The notes beneath the pieces are model-generated. The model searched no databases and was not told where the DNA came from. It saw only the letters and a program-made list of their open reading frames with translations. From an uncultured Pelagibacteraceae bacterium (GTDB lineage: Bacteria; Pseudomonadota; Alphaproteobacteria; Pelagibacterales; Pelagibacteraceae), in contig CACGOM010000002.1 in assembly GCA_902574705.1 (NCBI GenBank), positions 44,066 to 108,065 of the forward strand: a stretch of DNA of 64,000 nucleotides. The letters are read 5' to 3'. Of this stretch, positions 53,904-61,705 are shown piece after piece. Position 1 is the first letter of the stretch; each line of letters begins with the position of its first letter. Made by a program: the position numbers and the translations under genes.

Positions 53904-54224
53904 ATGGCAAGGGCAAAAAAATCAAAAGATAATTTTTTTGTAAGATTTTGGAATGGGCAACTCTCTCTTCCAATGTCGTACTGGGGTGTAGGTATAGGAT
54001 TAGGAATAGTATATGGTTTTCTCGTAGGAATTATAACGCTTGGTCTAGGAATGAGCGATGATGCTATGTGGGGATTTATAATTCCATTCCAAATTTATAC
54101 TGTTGTTGGAATTTGGAGATCATCCGATAAATACAAAGGACCTAAATTTTGGGCGATACTTGCAAAAATAGCTGTGATAATTGGGATAATTTCTAATTTT
54201 GCATCAATGTTAACTGGTTATTAA
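53904..54224 (+). CDS. Small hypothetical membrane protein
   Basis: 106 aa with 3 TM segments. Confidence 0.65.
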   Translation: MARAKKSKDNFFVRFWNGQLSLPMSYWGVGIGLGIVYGFLVGIITLGLGMSDDAMWGFIIPFQIYTVVGIWRSSDKYKGPKFWAILAKIAVIIGIISNFASMLTGY

Positions 54225-54265: not shown

Positions 54266-54391
54266 TTAATATTCATAACAGTAAGTTGTACAACTATTAC
54301 CATAACAACTAGTAGTACAATACGAGTATCCAGCTATCGCATTTCCACTAAGTAATGTTGTTATACTAAGTATAATTAATATTTTTTTCAT
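54266..54391 (-). CDS. Small secreted Cys/Tyr-rich peptide
   Basis: ATG at 54391 preceded by AAAGGAGGTAAA SD; MKKILIILSITTLLSGNAIAGYSYCTTSCYGNSCTTYCYEY with signal peptide. Confidence 0.7.
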   Translation of the reverse strand: MKKILIILSITTLLSGNAIAGYSYCTTSCYGNSCTTYCYEY

Positions 54392-54528: not shown

Positions 54529-54990
54529 ATGGCAAAGCTAAGAGAAATTTCATCGATAGAACATGGGCTAACAGAAGCTATTAAAAATCTTAAATCAAAA
54601 GCGATTGAAGAAGTAACAGGCAAAAGTGAGTCTTTTTTAAGAAAATGCAGTGATCCAGATTTAGACCAACAACTTGATCATAGAGACGCTGTGAAAATTG
54701 ATAAAGCGTGTGTTCAAAAAGGCTTAACACCCTACCTTTTAAGAGCTCATGAATATATTATTCAAAAAGAGCTTAAAAACGTAGTAACTGATCAAAAAGA
54801 TTTAAATGAACTTTTGACAAAGTTTACAATTTTACATGGTCATTTATTATCAGTTATTAATTCTGCAAAAAGTAGCAATGGTCATAAAGGAGAACAAATT
54901 TCAGCAGTTGAAAAAAAGGATATTTTTGCTGCTTTCGAAGCTTTGGAAAATAAGATTCATAAAATTAAAACAACAATTGAAAGCAGCTAA
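54529..54990 (+). CDS. Predicted HTH DNA-binding regulator (hypothetical)
   Basis: From ATG 54529: MAKLREISS...KAIEEVTGKSESFLRKCSDPDLDQQLDHRDAVKIDKACVQKGLTPYLL looks like a CII/Cro-type HTH followed by coiled-coil. Confidence 0.5.
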   Translation: MAKLREISSIEHGLTEAIKNLKSKAIEEVTGKSESFLRKCSDPDLDQQLDHRDAVKIDKACVQKGLTPYLLRAHEYIIQKELKNVVTDQKDLNELLTKFTILHGHLLSVINSAKSSNGHKGEQISAVEKKDIFAAFEALENKIHKIKTTIESS

Positions 54991-55673
54991 TGCAACTTCT
55001 TTTAGTAACAATTCTACCATCAATCCTAATAGTTTTATTCTTTGTCAAATCAGATAGATTTAAAGAACCAACTAAAGAAATCGTAAAAGTTTTTTTTCTA
55101 GGAATTCTAATCACTATTCCAGCTTATTTTTTAAACTCATATTTAAGTCAAATATGGTACTCAACAAATGCTAGCGAAGGACTTATCTCATCATTTCTTA
55201 CCGCGGCACCAGTTGAAGAAGGTTTAAAATTATCAGTTTTATATTTCTTTGTATATAAAATGAAAGATTTCAATGAGCCAATAGATGGAATTGTTTATGG
55301 CGTAAGTGTTTCGCTCGGTTTTGCAACTTTGGAAAACATTTATTATGTTTATCTTCTTGCAGATTATTTTGAAACAGCTTCAATGACATTAGCAATATTA
55401 AGATCATTTTCTGCAATCCCTGCACATGCAGTTTTTGGTATATTTATGGGTTATTTTTTCATGAAATATGTGTTTATTAAAAAGGGTGATAATTTAATTT
55501 TCGCATTTGTAGTGCCATTTGCTTTACATGGTTGTTATAACTTATTTACATCCTCTAATTTTTTTGTCTCGTTAATACTTATATTAATTGCATGGATTGT
55601 AGCTATACGAATGTTTTCAAGACTAAAAAAAACTCAAAAGACAAAACGAAGAGAATATGAAAAAAAATTGTAA
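54990..55673 (+). CDS. PrsW-family intramembrane metalloprotease
   Basis: APVEEGLKLSVLYFF, YGVSVSLGFATLENIYYV, IPAHAVFGIFMGYFF, PFALHGCYN. Confidence 0.88.
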   Translation: MQLLLVTILPSILIVLFFVKSDRFKEPTKEIVKVFFLGILITIPAYFLNSYLSQIWYSTNASEGLISSFLTAAPVEEGLKLSVLYFFVYKMKDFNEPIDGIVYGVSVSLGFATLENIYYVYLLADYFETASMTLAILRSFSAIPAHAVFGIFMGYFFMKYVFIKKGDNLIFAFVVPFALHGCYNLFTSSNFFVSLILILIAWIVAIRMFSRLKKTQKTKRREYEKKL

Positions 55674-56268
55674 ATTATTTTTTTTAATTACAATATTTTT
55701 ATTTCTAACAAATTTGTCTTTTTCTGAAGAAATAAGAACACGTTTTGGTTTCTTTATTAATTTACCAAACGACTTTGTTGCAATTCAGGATCAGAACATT
55801 GGTGAATTAATGAAAGAATATGATGGATCAGATATGGACAAAGAATTTTTCAATGAATTTATGGCTGGATCGAAAAAAAATGATATGAATATAGAATACT
55901 ATTTTCCTGAAAAAATTAATCCAGAGCGAAATTCAATAAATTTAAATTATCAAAAAGATACTAGTCTTGATGAAATTATTACACAAGTTGATTTACAAAA
56001 AGATGTATGCCCTTATTATCTGCAAGTTTATCAAGACTTATTTAATCGAAATGTTAAACAATATTACTGCAAATTGAATAATAATTTTAAAAATAAATAT
56101 AAAAACGTTATTCATTTAAAGCATGATGGACCTTTTAAAAATACTTACATGATACAATATCAATTCGATGTAATGAGAAAGATGGTTACATTAACAATTG
56201 GATGCCAATATGAAAATTGCAAATATATGGAAAAAGTTGGAATTAATATAATTAAATCGATTAATTGA
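55657..56268 (+). CDS. Hypothetical secreted protein
   Basis: 203 aa; signal peptide FFLITIFLFLTNLSFSE resembles that of the downstream channel protein (FLTNVSFSE). Confidence 0.65.
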   Translation: MKKNCKLFFLITIFLFLTNLSFSEEIRTRFGFFINLPNDFVAIQDQNIGELMKEYDGSDMDKEFFNEFMAGSKKNDMNIEYYFPEKINPERNSINLNYQKDTSLDEIITQVDLQKDVCPYYLQVYQDLFNRNVKQYYCKLNNNFKNKYKNVIHLKHDGPFKNTYMIQYQFDVMRKMVTLTIGCQYENCKYMEKVGINIIKSIN

Positions 56269-56293: not shown

Positions 56294-57829
56294 ATGAGGA
56301 ATTTTTTTTTAATTTTAATATTAATTTTTTTGACAAATGTATCTTTTTCTGAAGATAATTTATTTCATGAAGATGAAATTGTAGCTTGTTCCAATTTTTA
56401 TGATGCTGTAAAAAAAAGCAGTAACCCTAGAGTGAAAAACCTTTTTCCTAGATATTTATATAATGATTTTGGTTTTAAAATAAAAATCTTCGATAATGAC
56501 GGTGAATGGACACCGTTTAGAGATGAATATGGAAATATAAAAATTGGTGAGGTTTACTCTTATAAGACGCTAGACCTCATAAAACCCGAAGATAGCATTG
56601 TAAATATTAATGGAGAAAAACTTGAAACCTTAGATCAGTTTTATTCTGTAGCATATTATGACGAGGTAGAAATACTTAGACTTGATTTGTTAAATCAAAA
56701 TGGAGAATCTTATCAAGCAACAATAGAGTCACATGCTAACGCTTGGTCTTTTATTGATTATAGTTTAGAGGATATTTATATCTCAGATATAGATATTAAA
56801 AAGGGCACAACAACATTTACCCTAAGGGAGTCTTTTCAATTTAATTTTGATTTAGAAAATAATGATAATGAAAATTCACATCCATTACATGCGCTTGCAA
56901 AAAAATATCTTATCAATACTAAAGATGCAGATAATCCTTTCATTCATGTTTGTAAACCAACAATTGAGGAATTTGAATATTCAGGATTAACAGATCCATT
57001 AGATAACGATACTTTAAATTTAGTAAAATCTGATCAAGATTTAATTCAAAATTCATACAAGATCACCCCTTACCTCGCGCCATTTCAGAGTTATGACAAT
57101 GTAAGAGTTTCAAATAAGAGGATAAGTGTTCAAACCGTTAGAAATCAGTTTAATCTAAGATCCTTTCCATTTGATAAACAAATTATTAAGTATCAAATAG
57201 GAAACGGTACATTTGAAGTTGATGATATATTGTTTTGGCCACAAGCATTTACAATAAAAACTTTAAATCACTTTATGAAACTTGACGATATTTCAGGATG
57301 GCAAAAAAAAAAATATGACATCAAAAGAATTTTACATCGAGATACAGTTGATGTTGGTGGAGAATATAGAGACGCAATCAGTATTGAAATCGAATTAGAA
57401 AGAAAGCATGGCTATTATATTTTTAAAGTAATTTTACCAATAATTCTAATATTATCAGTTTGCTGGTCTGTGGTATGGGTCGATCCTAAAGAATTAGAAG
57501 CAAGACTAACTATAACAATTGTTTGCTTACTTTCATTAATTGCATATAATTTTGTTATTGATGCTGAATTACCAAAATTAGAGTATCTTACGGTATTAGA
57601 TTGGATTGTTCTAATTTCTTATTTTTATGCAACTGTACCTAATTTTTTAAGTATAATTTCATTCAGACTACAAAAAACTGATTTAAGGTTAAGTAATAAA
57701 CTTGAAGTGATTAGTAAAAGATATGGCCTTTCCTCTTATGTTTTAGGTATTTTTATAATTGTTTGGATAAATGCATTTTCTAATCCAGACAACTCAAGTA
57801 GCCTTATTAGTTGGATGGTTCCCTATTGA
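56294..57829 (+). CDS. Pentameric ligand-gated ion channel homologue with PDZ-like N-terminal region, copy 1
   Basis: Signal peptide; PDZ-like IKPEDSIVNINGEKLETLDQF; Cys/Pro-loop NLRSFPFDKQIIKYQIG; M1-M3 YYIFKVILPIILILSVCWSVVWVDPKELEARLTITIVCLLSLIAYNFVIDAELPKLEYLTVLDWIVLISYFYATVPNFLSII; M4. Confidence 0.85.
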   Translation: MRNFFLILILIFLTNVSFSEDNLFHEDEIVACSNFYDAVKKSSNPRVKNLFPRYLYNDFGFKIKIFDNDGEWTPFRDEYGNIKIGEVYSYKTLDLIKPEDSIVNINGEKLETLDQFYSVAYYDEVEILRLDLLNQNGESYQATIESHANAWSFIDYSLEDIYISDIDIKKGTTTFTLRESFQFNFDLENNDNENSHPLHALAKKYLINTKDADNPFIHVCKPTIEEFEYSGLTDPLDNDTLNLVKSDQDLIQNSYKITPYLAPFQSYDNVRVSNKRISVQTVRNQFNLRSFPFDKQIIKYQIGNGTFEVDDILFWPQAFTIKTLNHFMKLDDISGWQKKKYDIKRILHRDTVDVGGEYRDAISIEIELERKHGYYIFKVILPIILILSVCWSVVWVDPKELEARLTITIVCLLSLIAYNFVIDAELPKLEYLTVLDWIVLISYFYATVPNFLSIISFRLQKTDLRLSNKLEVISKRYGLSSYVLGIFIIVWINAFSNPDNSSSLISWMVPY

Positions 57830-57840
57830 TAAAAAATAGT

Positions 57841-59382
57841 ATGAGTAAAAAATTTAATATAATTTATTTGTTGTTTTTATATTTTATATTTTTTTCTTTT
57901 AATGCTGAGTCATCAATGTCCCCAAAATGTTTTGAATTATTTGATAAAATTAAAAACTCTCAAGACCCCTTAATTTCTAATTATCAAAATTATGAAAACT
58001 CTACGTATGGTTTTGATTTAGACATGTTTTTGGGCTTTAATGATGAAGGTGAACGTGAATGGCTTTTTAAAAGAGATGAAAATAATTATCCTCTAGTAGG
58101 AAGGCATACTTCTGAAAGTTTGATAAATAAAATAAAAACTGGAGATAAAGTAATCAGTGTTAATGGCCAAGAAATAAATTTATTAAACGACGATGAATTA
58201 TCTGATTTATTTCTTGTTACAGAAAATAACGAAAATGTTGTTTCAAATATTGTATTTGAAAGAAATGGAAAAAAATTCGATTTTGATCTTGAAATAATAC
58301 TTGAGTATCATCAAGATGATCTAATTAAATTTTATATATCAAATATAAGTGAGATCTCGCAAATAAAATCCACTTATAAAGCTGATGTTTATTTACAAAC
58401 TTCAGTAGATTATGATTATGACACAGACTCACTTCCACTTGGAAAAATAATTTTTGATACTTTGGTATATAAAAACGAAAAAGATGAATGGGACTGGCAG
58501 CAATGTGATTGGATACCAGAGGAAAAAATAATAGAATACAATATTCCTGATCCTTCACATGAGTTAGTTTTTTTTAATGCTGTTAATGTAAATAAAAATA
58601 CGCAAATTAAAAATATAAGTATATATCCTTGGTCAGAAAAAATCGGAGATGATGTAGATTATGACTATTCAACAGTTGATTCTTACACAAATGGTACTTT
58701 TGAATTTAAAAATGACTTCGATTTAAAAACCTTTCCGTTTGATAAACAAAAACTAATTTTTCAAATTGCATACCAAAATGATTTAGACGAATACTTATTA
58801 GATTATGGAAAGGATACAATTAAAGCTTTAGAATATACTGCACAAAATATAAATATAAGTGGATGGAATATTGTAAAGCATGATATTAAAAATACTTTCT
58901 ATAAAAGTCCAACAGGTGATAATTACAGTGGAATAGAAATTTCTTTAGAAATTGAGAGAAAAACTGGATATTATATTTATAAAGTAATAATACCTATATT
59001 ACTTATACTTCTAGTTTGTTGGTCTGTAGTATGGATTGATCCCGAAGAATTAGAGTCAAAGCTTACAATTACAATTGTATGTTTACTATCACTAATAGCT
59101 TATAACTTTGTAATTGATAAAGAGCTTCCAAAATTAGAGTATCTCACAGTTCTTGATTGGATAATATTGGTATCTTATGTTTATGCAACAATACCAAACT
59201 TTTTAAGTATAATAACCTTTAAACTTCATAAAAATAAATATTGGACAAAAATAGATAAAATAAATTATTTAAGTAAAGTTGTTGGTCCAACATCATATTT
59301 ATTAATAATATTTTTAATAATAATCATAAATGTCAATAAGTATCCTGACACATCGGGTAAATTAATTGCATGGATGTCATAA
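57841..59382 (+). CDS. Pentameric ligand-gated ion channel homologue with PDZ-like N-terminal region, copy 2
   Basis: Start ATG 57841; PDZ-like IKTGDKVISVNGQEINLLNDDEL; DLKTFPFDKQKLIFQIA; YYIYKVIIPILLILLVCWSVVWIDPEELESKLTITIVCLLSLIAYNFVIDKELPKLEYLTVLDWIILVSYVYATIPNFLSII; M4. Confidence 0.85.
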   Translation: MSKKFNIIYLLFLYFIFFSFNAESSMSPKCFELFDKIKNSQDPLISNYQNYENSTYGFDLDMFLGFNDEGEREWLFKRDENNYPLVGRHTSESLINKIKTGDKVISVNGQEINLLNDDELSDLFLVTENNENVVSNIVFERNGKKFDFDLEIILEYHQDDLIKFYISNISEISQIKSTYKADVYLQTSVDYDYDTDSLPLGKIIFDTLVYKNEKDEWDWQQCDWIPEEKIIEYNIPDPSHELVFFNAVNVNKNTQIKNISIYPWSEKIGDDVDYDYSTVDSYTNGTFEFKNDFDLKTFPFDKQKLIFQIAYQNDLDEYLLDYGKDTIKALEYTAQNINISGWNIVKHDIKNTFYKSPTGDNYSGIEISLEIERKTGYYIYKVIIPILLILLVCWSVVWIDPEELESKLTITIVCLLSLIAYNFVIDKELPKLEYLTVLDWIILVSYVYATIPNFLSIITFKLHKNKYWTKIDKINYLSKVVGPTSYLLIIFLIIIINVNKYPDTSGKLIAWMS

Positions 59383-59485: not shown

Positions 59486-59629
59486 ATGACTTTGAAGCAA
59501 TATTTAATAGCTGGTGTTATAGAGCAAGCTATTGTTCTAGGGGTGATTTTGCCAGCTACTGGATGGTGGTTTAGCTTTTTTGCTCTAACTGCTGTTTGGA
59601 ACTTAGTTGCTGGTGGATTTGGCAAGTAA
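59486..59629 (+). CDS. 47-aa hydrophobic small protein
   Basis: Not on plus strand of ORF track. MTLKQYLIAGVIEQAIVLGVILPATGWWFSFFALTAVWNLVAGGFGK; SD-like aaaggatagaag upstream. Confidence 0.6.
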   Translation: MTLKQYLIAGVIEQAIVLGVILPATGWWFSFFALTAVWNLVAGGFGK

Positions 59630-59745: not shown

Positions 59746-61705
59746 ATGAAAATACCTGTTTTATTACCAAATATATTTGATCATCCTTTTACGTACGAGT
59801 CAGATAAAAAGATTGAAGTTGGCAAATACGTTTTAGTTCCGTTTGGAAAGACAGATTCAATAGGTGTTGTATGGGATCAATTTGAGAAAGAAAAAAATAA
59901 GAAAACATTTAAAATTAAAAAAATCAAAAAAATTTTAAATATCAATAAACTCAACGAAAATTTTATAAAATTTTTAAATTGGTTTTCAGAATATAATATT
60001 GTGCCAAAAGGTATGGCTTTGAAGCTTCATTTATTAAGCAGTGAGGCAATAGAAGATTTAAAAGAAAAAGAATATCTGAAATTCAATGAAAAACACTATT
60101 TTAATAAATATGAATTAAGTAAAGAACAAAATGATGCGTTTAAGGATTTAATAAAAAAAGATAAAAAATTTAGGACACATGTGATTCAAGGAACCACAGG
60201 ATCAGGAAAAACAATCGTATACTTTAATGCAATAAAGAAAAAAGTTGAAGAAGGATATCAGGCATTAATTTTATTACCAGAAATAGGATTAACAAATGAT
60301 TTTGAAAAAAAATTTGTAGATTTTTTTGGCTTCAGACCTGCTATTTGGCACTCATCTGTAACAAAAAAAAATAAAAAAATTATCTGGAGTGGATTAGCTT
60401 CTAATAAAATAAAGGTGGTAATTGGTGCAAGATCAGCACTATTTTTACCTTTTAAGAATTTAGGCTTAATAACTGTGGACGAAGAGCATGACCAGTCTTA
60501 CAAACAAGATGAAGGTGTAATTTATAACGCACGTGATATGGCAATTTCTAGAGCAAAGTTTGAAAATGTGCCAATAAATCTTATTAGTGCAGTGCCTTCG
60601 GTTGAAACATACAATAATATTAAATTAAAGAAATTTGAGTACTCACGAATATTGAATAGATATAAAGATGCAAACCTACCAGATCATGAAATAATTGATT
60701 TAAAAAAATATAAATTAGAAAAACAAAAATGGATTTCTTCAAAGACTATTGAAAAAGTAAAATCTCACCTTCTTAGAGGAGATCAGGTCCTATTTTTTTT
60801 TAAATAGGAGAGGATTTTCTCCTTTTGTTTTATGTAAAAAATGTATCAATGTATTTTCCTGTCCTAATTGTTCAATCAATCTTGTATTTCACAAAAAAAA
60901 TAATCAATTGCTTTGTCATTATTGCGGACATAAATCCGACCTAAATAGGAATTGTGTTGAAGGAAATAAATGTGACCCAGCTTTTTCTGGTCCTGGAGTT
61001 GAAAAAATATCTGAAGAGGTAAATTCTATTTTTCCAGAATTTAAGTCAGTAATTTTTTCTAGTGATACAATGAATAAAAAATCTTCAATAAATATTTTAG
61101 ATGATATTATTGATAATAAAATTAATATTCTAATTGGAACCCAAATGGTTTCTAAAGGATTTCATTTTCCTAATTTAAATTGTATTGTTGTTCTAGATAT
61201 TGACTTAACATCACAAGGACATGATTTACGTGCTGCTGAAAAAAACTTACAATTGTATCATCAACTTTCTGGAAGAGCAGGTAGAGCTGGCAAACCGGCT
61301 AAAGTTTATTTTCAAACTTATAATATAAACTCAGATGTTATATCTCAAATTACTGATCAAGATCCTTTTTTATTTTTAGATAAGGAATTAATTTTAAGAA
61401 AAAATTATTCTTTACCGCCATTTGAAAGATTTATAGGTATTATAATTACATCATCAGATGAAGACAAATTAAAAGAAGAATCATTCATCCTACATGATGA
61501 ATTAAGCAAAAATTTAAATTGTAAAGTTCTAGGACCTGTAGAGGCTCCAATATTTAAAATTAAAAAAAATTTCAGGAATAGAATTTTAATTAGAGCAAAA
61601 AAGGATGTAAAAATTCAAAAAAAATTGTCTGAAATTCTTAAGATCCACAAGTCCAGAAGTGGAATAAAACTAATAGTTGATGTTGACCCAATAAGCTTCA
61701 ATTAG
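59746..61705 (+). CDS. priA: Primosomal protein N' (PriA helicase), reading frame interrupted at a T9 tract (60793-60801)
   Basis: N-part GTTGSGKTIVYF, ITVDEEHDQSYKQDEGVIYNARDMA; removing one T continues VLFFLNRRGFSPFVLCKKCINVFSCPNCS...LLCHYCGH and SGRAGRAGKPAKVYFQTYN. Confidence 0.9.

Follow-up and report, generated by a model that had tools for sequence, protein, structure and literature searches.

A PDZ-bearing pair of pentameric ligand-gated ion channel genes and their PrsW-linked module in a SAR11-type genome

The window analyzed here, a stretch of 64,000 nucleotides (nt) from an uncultured Pelagibacteraceae bacterium (GenBank assembly GCA_902574705.1, contig CACGOM010000002.1, positions 44,066 to 108,065), carries two adjacent genes, pLGIC1 and pLGIC2, each encoding a subunit of a pentameric ligand-gated ion channel (pLGIC) that combines an N-terminal helix (N-helix), an inserted PDZ domain, a beta-sandwich extracellular domain (ECD) and a GLIC-like M2 pore. 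Both open reading frames (ORFs) are intact and lie on one strand, 11 nt apart, at the end of a conserved module that is composed, in order, of a gene for a small secreted peptide, a CII-like regulator, the intramembrane protease PrsW (followed here by a secreted protein, c15) and the PDZ-bearing channel. The host of both channel genes is a Pelagibacterales (SAR11-type) genome of 40 contigs and 1.07 Mb, 86% complete (G000), and close relatives of the two genes come from uncultured Pelagibacteraceae single-cell genomes. We regard the identity of the two genes as PDZ-bearing pLGICs with a PrsW-linked module as nearly certain.

Two channel subunits with an inserted PDZ domain

Several lines of evidence place both proteins among the pLGICs. 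Specifically, each matched the NCBIfam LGIC_1 family (E 9e-28 for pLGIC1 and 4e-31 for pLGIC2), their best single-sequence matches in the PDB were ELIC chains (6hjx; E 4e-15 and 1e-19, respectively), and the best profile match for the ECD and transmembrane domain was DeCLIC (E 2e-34). An AlphaFold2 (AF2) model of pLGIC2, built from a 47-sequence alignment, comprised a PDZ domain, an ECD and four transmembrane (TM) helices with a predicted local distance difference test score (pLDDT) of 87.9 and a predicted template modeling score of 0.80, and it matched pLGICs in Foldseek at ~1e-20. The fold, in which the four TM helices come after a beta-sandwich ECD, was assigned by AF2 and Foldseek for pLGIC2, and by alignment and hidden Markov models for pLGIC1. 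The Pro-loop FPFDKQ and the Arg preceding M1 are present in both channels, and the corresponding residues P299, D301 and R373 are invariant across 47 family sequences. No Cys flanks the Pro-loop, so that the disulfide of animal-type Cys-loop receptors is lacking. Further, M2 of pLGIC1 aligned without gaps to the GLIC chains in the PDB and shares with them the Glu at position -2', which would form the charged ring at the cytoplasmic end of M2; from this residue and the homology to GLIC, cation conductance can be soundly inferred.

An earlier reading of the locus, made from the sequence only, had placed two adjacent pLGIC genes here, each with a signal peptide, the FPFDKQ loop and M1-M4, and had called them cation channels on the strength of a gap-free alignment to the M2 of GLIC. 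The genes, the shared features and the alignment were all recovered in our analysis, the cation assignment holds as an expectation from homology, and the structure prediction that had been proposed as a check returned a predicted ECD beta-sandwich, a four-helix pore and an N-terminal PDZ fold.

The same reading had described an N-terminal region of ~150 amino acids (aa) as PDZ-like, and this region proved to be a true PDZ domain. In single-sequence scans with Pfam, the PDZ match was sub-threshold for pLGIC2 (E 0.016) and absent for pLGIC1, and the best value over 32 family members was 7e-6; Pfam alone is thus no proof of a PDZ in these two proteins, and a family profile and a fold were needed. 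A profile built from 17 N-terminal regions had as its top match the PDZ tandem of the Aquifex RseP/site-2-protease (S2P) homologue (E 7e-12), with further matches to periplasmic Do, many HtrA PDZs and other proteases, while the NCBIfam matches of the region were SpoIVB, DegP, RseP and CtpB. In the AF2 model of the pLGIC1 N-terminus, pLDDT exceeded 90 over most of the PDZ core, and nearly all of its top Foldseek matches were PDZ proteins (HtrA, DegS, DegP, CtpA, RseP), the best with a probability of 1.0 and an E of only ~1e-3, the domain being small. The nearest PDZs (RseP/S2P, DegS, DegP, CtpA) all belong to envelope proteases. The consensus reads GF...GDxIxxxNG, with the GD-x-I-x-x-x-NG segment present, and in the carboxylate-binding loop, [Y/F/L/I]GF, the Gly is invariant and the Phe 90% conserved across the 17 sequences, which suggests that peptide binding has been kept. 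On these motifs, sensing of a peptide or protein by the PDZ is plausible.

Nearly all members of the family, PDZ-bearing or PDZ-less, possess exactly two periplasmic Cys residues at fixed positions; in pLGIC2, they are C30 in the N-helix and C222 in the ECD, the only two in that protein. In one small clade, both were lost or shifted together. Judging from this co-conservation, N-helix and ECD are probably fastened to each other by a disulfide that brackets the inserted PDZ, and the predicted C30-C222 bond is different from the Cys-loop disulfide.

Table 1. Features of the channel genes and of the associated module (positions refer to the window)
Feature	Position	Strand	Remarks
pLGIC1	56294..57829	+	ATG to stop, 511 aa; signal peptide, Cys-bearing N-helix, PDZ, ECD, M1-M4
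PDZ of pLGIC1	56453..56746	+	aa ~54-151; family profile, AF2, Foldseek
Glu402 codon, -2' residue of M2 in pLGIC1	57497..57499	+	gap-free GLIC alignment
pLGIC2	57841..59382	+	ATG to stop, 513 aa; architecture as pLGIC1
PDZ of pLGIC2	57991..58293	+	aa ~51-151; sub-threshold Pfam match, family profile, AF2 strands and helices
M2 pore helix of pLGIC2	59050..59118	+	aa 404-426 in model
Small membrane protein c3	53904..54224	+	accompanies the module in 19/52 pLGIC loci
Small secreted peptide gene	54266..54391	-	~41 aa, Sec signal + GYSYCTTSCYGNSCTTYCYEY; divergent from regulator; family A
CII-like (Phage_CP76) helix-turn-helix regulator c2HTH	54529..54990	+	Pfam PF06892, E 7.8e-6
PrsW glutamic intramembrane protease	54990..55673	+	Pfam E 3.4e-35, NCBIfam E 2.3e-41
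Secreted protein c15	55657..56268	+	203 aa, family unassigned; overlaps PrsW

A module of PrsW, a regulator and secreted peptides

The strongest clue lies upstream of the two genes to which the sequence-only reading was confined, in the linked PrsW, CII-like regulator and peptide gene (Table 1). In a survey of 398 Pelagibacterales genomes, a pLGIC of any form occurred in 46, in line with the earlier expectation that such channels be unusual in SAR11. Twenty-seven of these encode a long form, and 19 only a short (PDZ-less) form, the two being separated by the start point of the family alignment. We used the long form as a proxy for a PDZ-bearing channel. This proxy is reliable in the f1 module clade, but some f2 and g5 members have long N-termini without a match to the PDZ profile.

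PrsW, present in 48 of the 398 genomes, tracks the long form. It was found in 21 of the 27 long-form genomes (odds ratio 45, p 1e-16) and in four of the 19 with short forms only (p 0.27), these p values treating as independent genomes that are in part related. It lies within 2 kb of a pLGIC in 16 cases, and in many loci the PrsW stop falls 4-26 nt inside the start region of the channel gene, an overlap that suggests translational coupling and that is also seen in a gammaproteobacterial metagenome-assembled genome (L048), although that contig is possibly misbinned (GC 0.30). The adjacency recurs at different chromosomal sites, which shows that inheritance of one ancestral locus does not by itself explain the link to PrsW. 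The EExxK, FxxxE and H motifs, placed in TM helices, are intact in the window PrsW and conserved in 23 relatives; its score, 141.8 bits against an NCBIfam equivalog cut-off of 225, makes it a member of the family and not an equivalog of Bacillus PrsW.

The CII-like regulator was found in 17 of 148 genomes and in 31 of 52 pLGIC loci. In another alphaproteobacterial family (G655 and G732; L113:6476-8327 and L114:6662-8480), it stands directly upstream of a 450-461-aa pLGIC without PrsW, and the link between regulator and channel is hence broader than that between PrsW and channel. The homologues of c15 that we found lie beside PrsW, a pLGIC or both.

We count the secreted peptide among the components of the module. 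Each of the 15 distinct modules of regulator, PrsW and pLGIC has, upstream of the regulator and in the opposite orientation, a small ORF that encodes a Sec signal, where dinucleotide shuffles would lead one to expect 0.62, under a detection rule that was written after the first peptides had been seen. Five unrelated peptide families fill this slot: one Cys-rich, one with SPNxYGGYN repeats, one with NWDNSS/NGIYDN repeats, and two others. When three of them were searched for in 148, 148 and 93 genomes, clear matches came from module genomes only, the others being marginal. L043 carries a second family-A copy elsewhere.

Other neighbors were observed as well. Where PrsW occurs without a pLGIC, it often adjoins two paired membrane proteins, of ~280-310 and 277-288 aa, or else further secreted proteins (L075, L077-L084); the SAR11 PrsW seems to act as a hub for envelope modules that can be exchanged. 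Near the PDZ-bearing channels of L045 (6623-12250), L043 (9470-15074), L023 and L092 lie further proteases, one trypsin-like (Trypsin_2, E 1e-20) and the other a PDZ-TPR-CHAT protein of 1,200-1,500 aa. Downstream of the window pair (59486-59629, + strand) is a 47-aa membrane protein, MTLKQYLIAGVIEQAIVLGVILPATGWWFSFFALTAVWNLVAGGFGK, which is kept behind the pLGIC at different chromosomal sites (L022, L035-L037, L089, L091) and a variant of which lies upstream of the regulator in L028. Beyond it (59746-61705), priA is present as two ORFs (353 and 265 aa) where relatives have a single ORF of ~650 aa; the frameshift behind this split is either genuine or an artifact of sequencing. In a one-contig genome (G009), a second pLGIC-like protein (L030:53-1312, - strand) is extremely divergent (branch length >6).

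Paralogue divergence, pairing and selection

The term near-identical, used in the sequence-only reading, holds for the pore (M1 79%, M2 86% and M3 79% identity) and not for M4 (44%), the ECD (25%) and the PDZ (22%), with 36% identity overall. High pore identity is a trait of the whole family, averaging 73% in 160 pairs whose ECDs have diverged to a similar degree and among which the window pair ranks 16th, so the likeness of the two pores is no special evidence for co-assembly. In the tree, pLGIC1 and pLGIC2 are old paralogues and not sisters, which, together with the 22-25% identity of their PDZ and ECD, rules out a recent tandem duplication.

The heteromeric channel proposed earlier, taken as an obligate heteropentamer, draws on the adjacency of the genes, on their pores and on tandem or near pairs in ~9 other genomes, often of a PDZ-bearing with a PDZ-less form. 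The pairing itself is inconstant, however. Seventeen of the 27 long-form genomes have a single channel, three have two long genes and seven a long and a short one; isolated genes, which the earlier reading had named as counting against its pair, are thus the prevailing state, though not the only one (10 of the 27 have a second channel). At the same locus in a very close relative (L035, between lpd and priA), gene 1 is 91% identical to pLGIC1 and no second channel gene is present, while the second slot of L036 is occupied by another lineage, and a close relative of pLGIC2 was found solely in L037 (90-91%). On this co-occurrence and the phylogeny, we reject an obligate heteromer as a general rule, and for pLGIC1 and pLGIC2 themselves we consider it quite improbable. 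Since most long-form genomes carry a single channel, homopentamers are probably the usual state; the window pair could form two of them, each with its own sensor, or else a mixed channel.

Both channel genes are under purifying selection, with a ratio of nonsynonymous to synonymous substitution rates (dN/dS) of ~0.15 (PrsW, 0.04-0.09); with ORFs intact, this value rules out pseudogenes or relics. Within the channels, dN/dS is 0.03-0.12 in the TM region as against ~0.3-0.4 in the PDZ. Synonymous divergence (dS) is also uneven: for gene 1 of the window versus L035, it is 0.13 in the PDZ, 0.14 in the ECD and 0.76 in the TM region, and versus L037 the PDZ is saturated with a TM dS of 0.88. The periplasmic part hence appears to have been swapped by recombination over a constant pore, which is what one would expect of a sensor that faces shifting demands.

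Candidate function and relation to known systems

On every point of sequence or model that can be tested, the two proteins agree with the pLGICs, and the PDZ-pLGIC is a new architecture, not a new kind of protein. With GLIC and ELIC it shares the ECD fold, the Pro-loop, the pre-M1 Arg and the four TM helices, whereas their chains of ~310-320 aa have neither a PDZ nor a Cys-bearing N-helix. To our knowledge, no PrsW or CII-like partner has been described for GLIC or ELIC. DeCLIC, the best profile match, also has an extra periplasmic N-terminal region, but this consists of two jelly-roll lobes (PMC9897478, PMC12664993) and not of a PDZ, which in the window channels is inserted between N-helix and ECD. 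A published survey of pLGICs with added periplasmic domains shares with our locus the principle of a sensor on a pLGIC core and the presence of operonic partners; the partners surveyed bind small molecules, whereas PDZs bind peptides, and a text search of that survey returned no mention of PDZ or proteases. The 2016 pLGIC inventory mentioned Pelagibacter in passing and discarded terminal domains (PMC4795631). Our searches of open-access PMC papers returned neither a PDZ-bearing pLGIC nor a connection of PrsW with such channels. The other point of comparison is regulated intramembrane proteolysis by DegS/RseP and PrsW/RasP, in which DegS detects unfolded outer-membrane proteins through its PDZ and Bacillus PrsW acts on RsiW as site-1 protease (PMC10202637). 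The channel PDZ is closest to RseP-type and HtrA PDZs, but here it sits on an ion channel, not on a protease, and no anti-sigma factor was seen in the module.

We tentatively propose that a GLIC-like cation pore is gated through the PDZ, which would read a periplasmic peptide or protein C-terminus, and that PrsW is the partner of the channel. The subunits would form inner-membrane cation channels able to work as homopentamers, and the window pair would provide two channels that share a pore but differ in their sensors, although both subunits might also mix within one pentamer. The PDZ would bind a periplasmic peptide or an exposed protein C-terminus, as protease PDZs do, and, through the disulfide that probably ties the N-helix to the ECD on either side of the PDZ, binding would be passed to the ECD and alter gating. 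PrsW would be the functional partner, most likely making or removing the PDZ ligand, or alternatively cleaving a membrane protein presented by the channel complex, and the regulator would control expression of the module. Such a system would couple envelope proteolysis to cation flux. A narrower version, in which the channel reads peptides or C-termini that PrsW makes or takes away, with the variable secreted peptides of the module as a possible source, and so converts envelope proteolysis into cation flux, strikes us as unlikely; it would amount to regulated intramembrane proteolysis with an ion current for its output.

Several observations weigh against this proposal. The f2 genomes keep PrsW and pLGIC side by side, yet in convergent orientation or in reversed order, six of the 27 long-channel genomes have no PrsW, and 23 of the 48 PrsW genomes have no pLGIC, so that PrsW is not dedicated to channels. 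As for the peptides, L036 and L037 encode gene 1 products that are 91% identical next to unrelated peptides; families that swap between near-identical receptors argue against the peptide as a receptor-specific agonist. Further, small ORFs with a signal peptide or membrane segment occur in 24 of 101 other gaps, a base rate that makes peptide presence weaker evidence than the shuffles suggest.

One alternative is that a small molecule or protons gate the classical ECD site, as in ELIC and GLIC, with the PDZ a mere dock or assembly domain that would hold PrsW or other envelope proteins close to the channel. The ECD, the Pro-loop Asp and the pre-M1 Arg are conserved, ELIC is a precedent in being gated by primary amines (PMC3119659), and in seven of seven loci (L021:7830-10387, L089:6587-9112, L090:7689-10297, L091, L093, L094 and L101), related PDZ-less channels of one clade directly follow a flavin amine oxidase whose signal, RRKFIKTSLLGL, is Tat-like. 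This arrangement suggests small-amine ligands, as for ELIC, for that class. However, the PDZ is the most variable region by both dN/dS and paralogue identity and conserves its peptide-binding loop amid that variability, a better fit to a sensor than to a fixed dock, and we consider this alternative possible, if on balance doubtful. Another is that PrsW cleaves the channel subunit itself, for turnover or periplasmic release, with the PDZ controlling access of the protease in the manner of RseP, whose PDZs restrict substrate access (PMC10202637). The gene overlap and the association of PrsW with the PDZ-bearing and not the PDZ-less form would agree with this, but the very strong constraint on M1-M4 as a pore and the six long-channel genomes without PrsW make it improbable.

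A competition or defence locus was also considered, in which the peptide would be a bacteriocin-like or decoy-like effector, PrsW would mature it or confer immunity, and the channel would be its receptor or a depolarizing effector. The swapping of five unrelated peptide families as cassettes among close relatives, the sporadic spread (46 of 398 genomes), the occurrence of PrsW among the releasing peptidases of polymorphic toxins (PMC3482391) and the trypsin-like and PDZ-CHAT protease genes that flank some copies all point this way. The module nevertheless has no toxin or transport gene, PADLOC returned zero matches among the window genes, by which a known defence system was rejected, and IMG/VR, INPHARED and PLSDB contained no related locus, by which phage or plasmid cargo was rejected; we therefore consider a role in competition or defence very improbable.

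Most of what is known about GLIC, ELIC and DeCLIC concerns their structures, and the cellular role of bacterial pLGICs is a long-standing question. A PDZ on a channel that is tied genetically to a specific protease and regulator provides a concrete partner and ligand class, in one of the ocean's most abundant bacterial groups. If our proposal is true, the pLGIC repertoire would gain peptide or protein sensing, and ion channels would be linked to regulated proteolysis. The set of PDZ-pLGIC and PrsW points to a so far undescribed bacterial sensing of envelope proteins or peptides.

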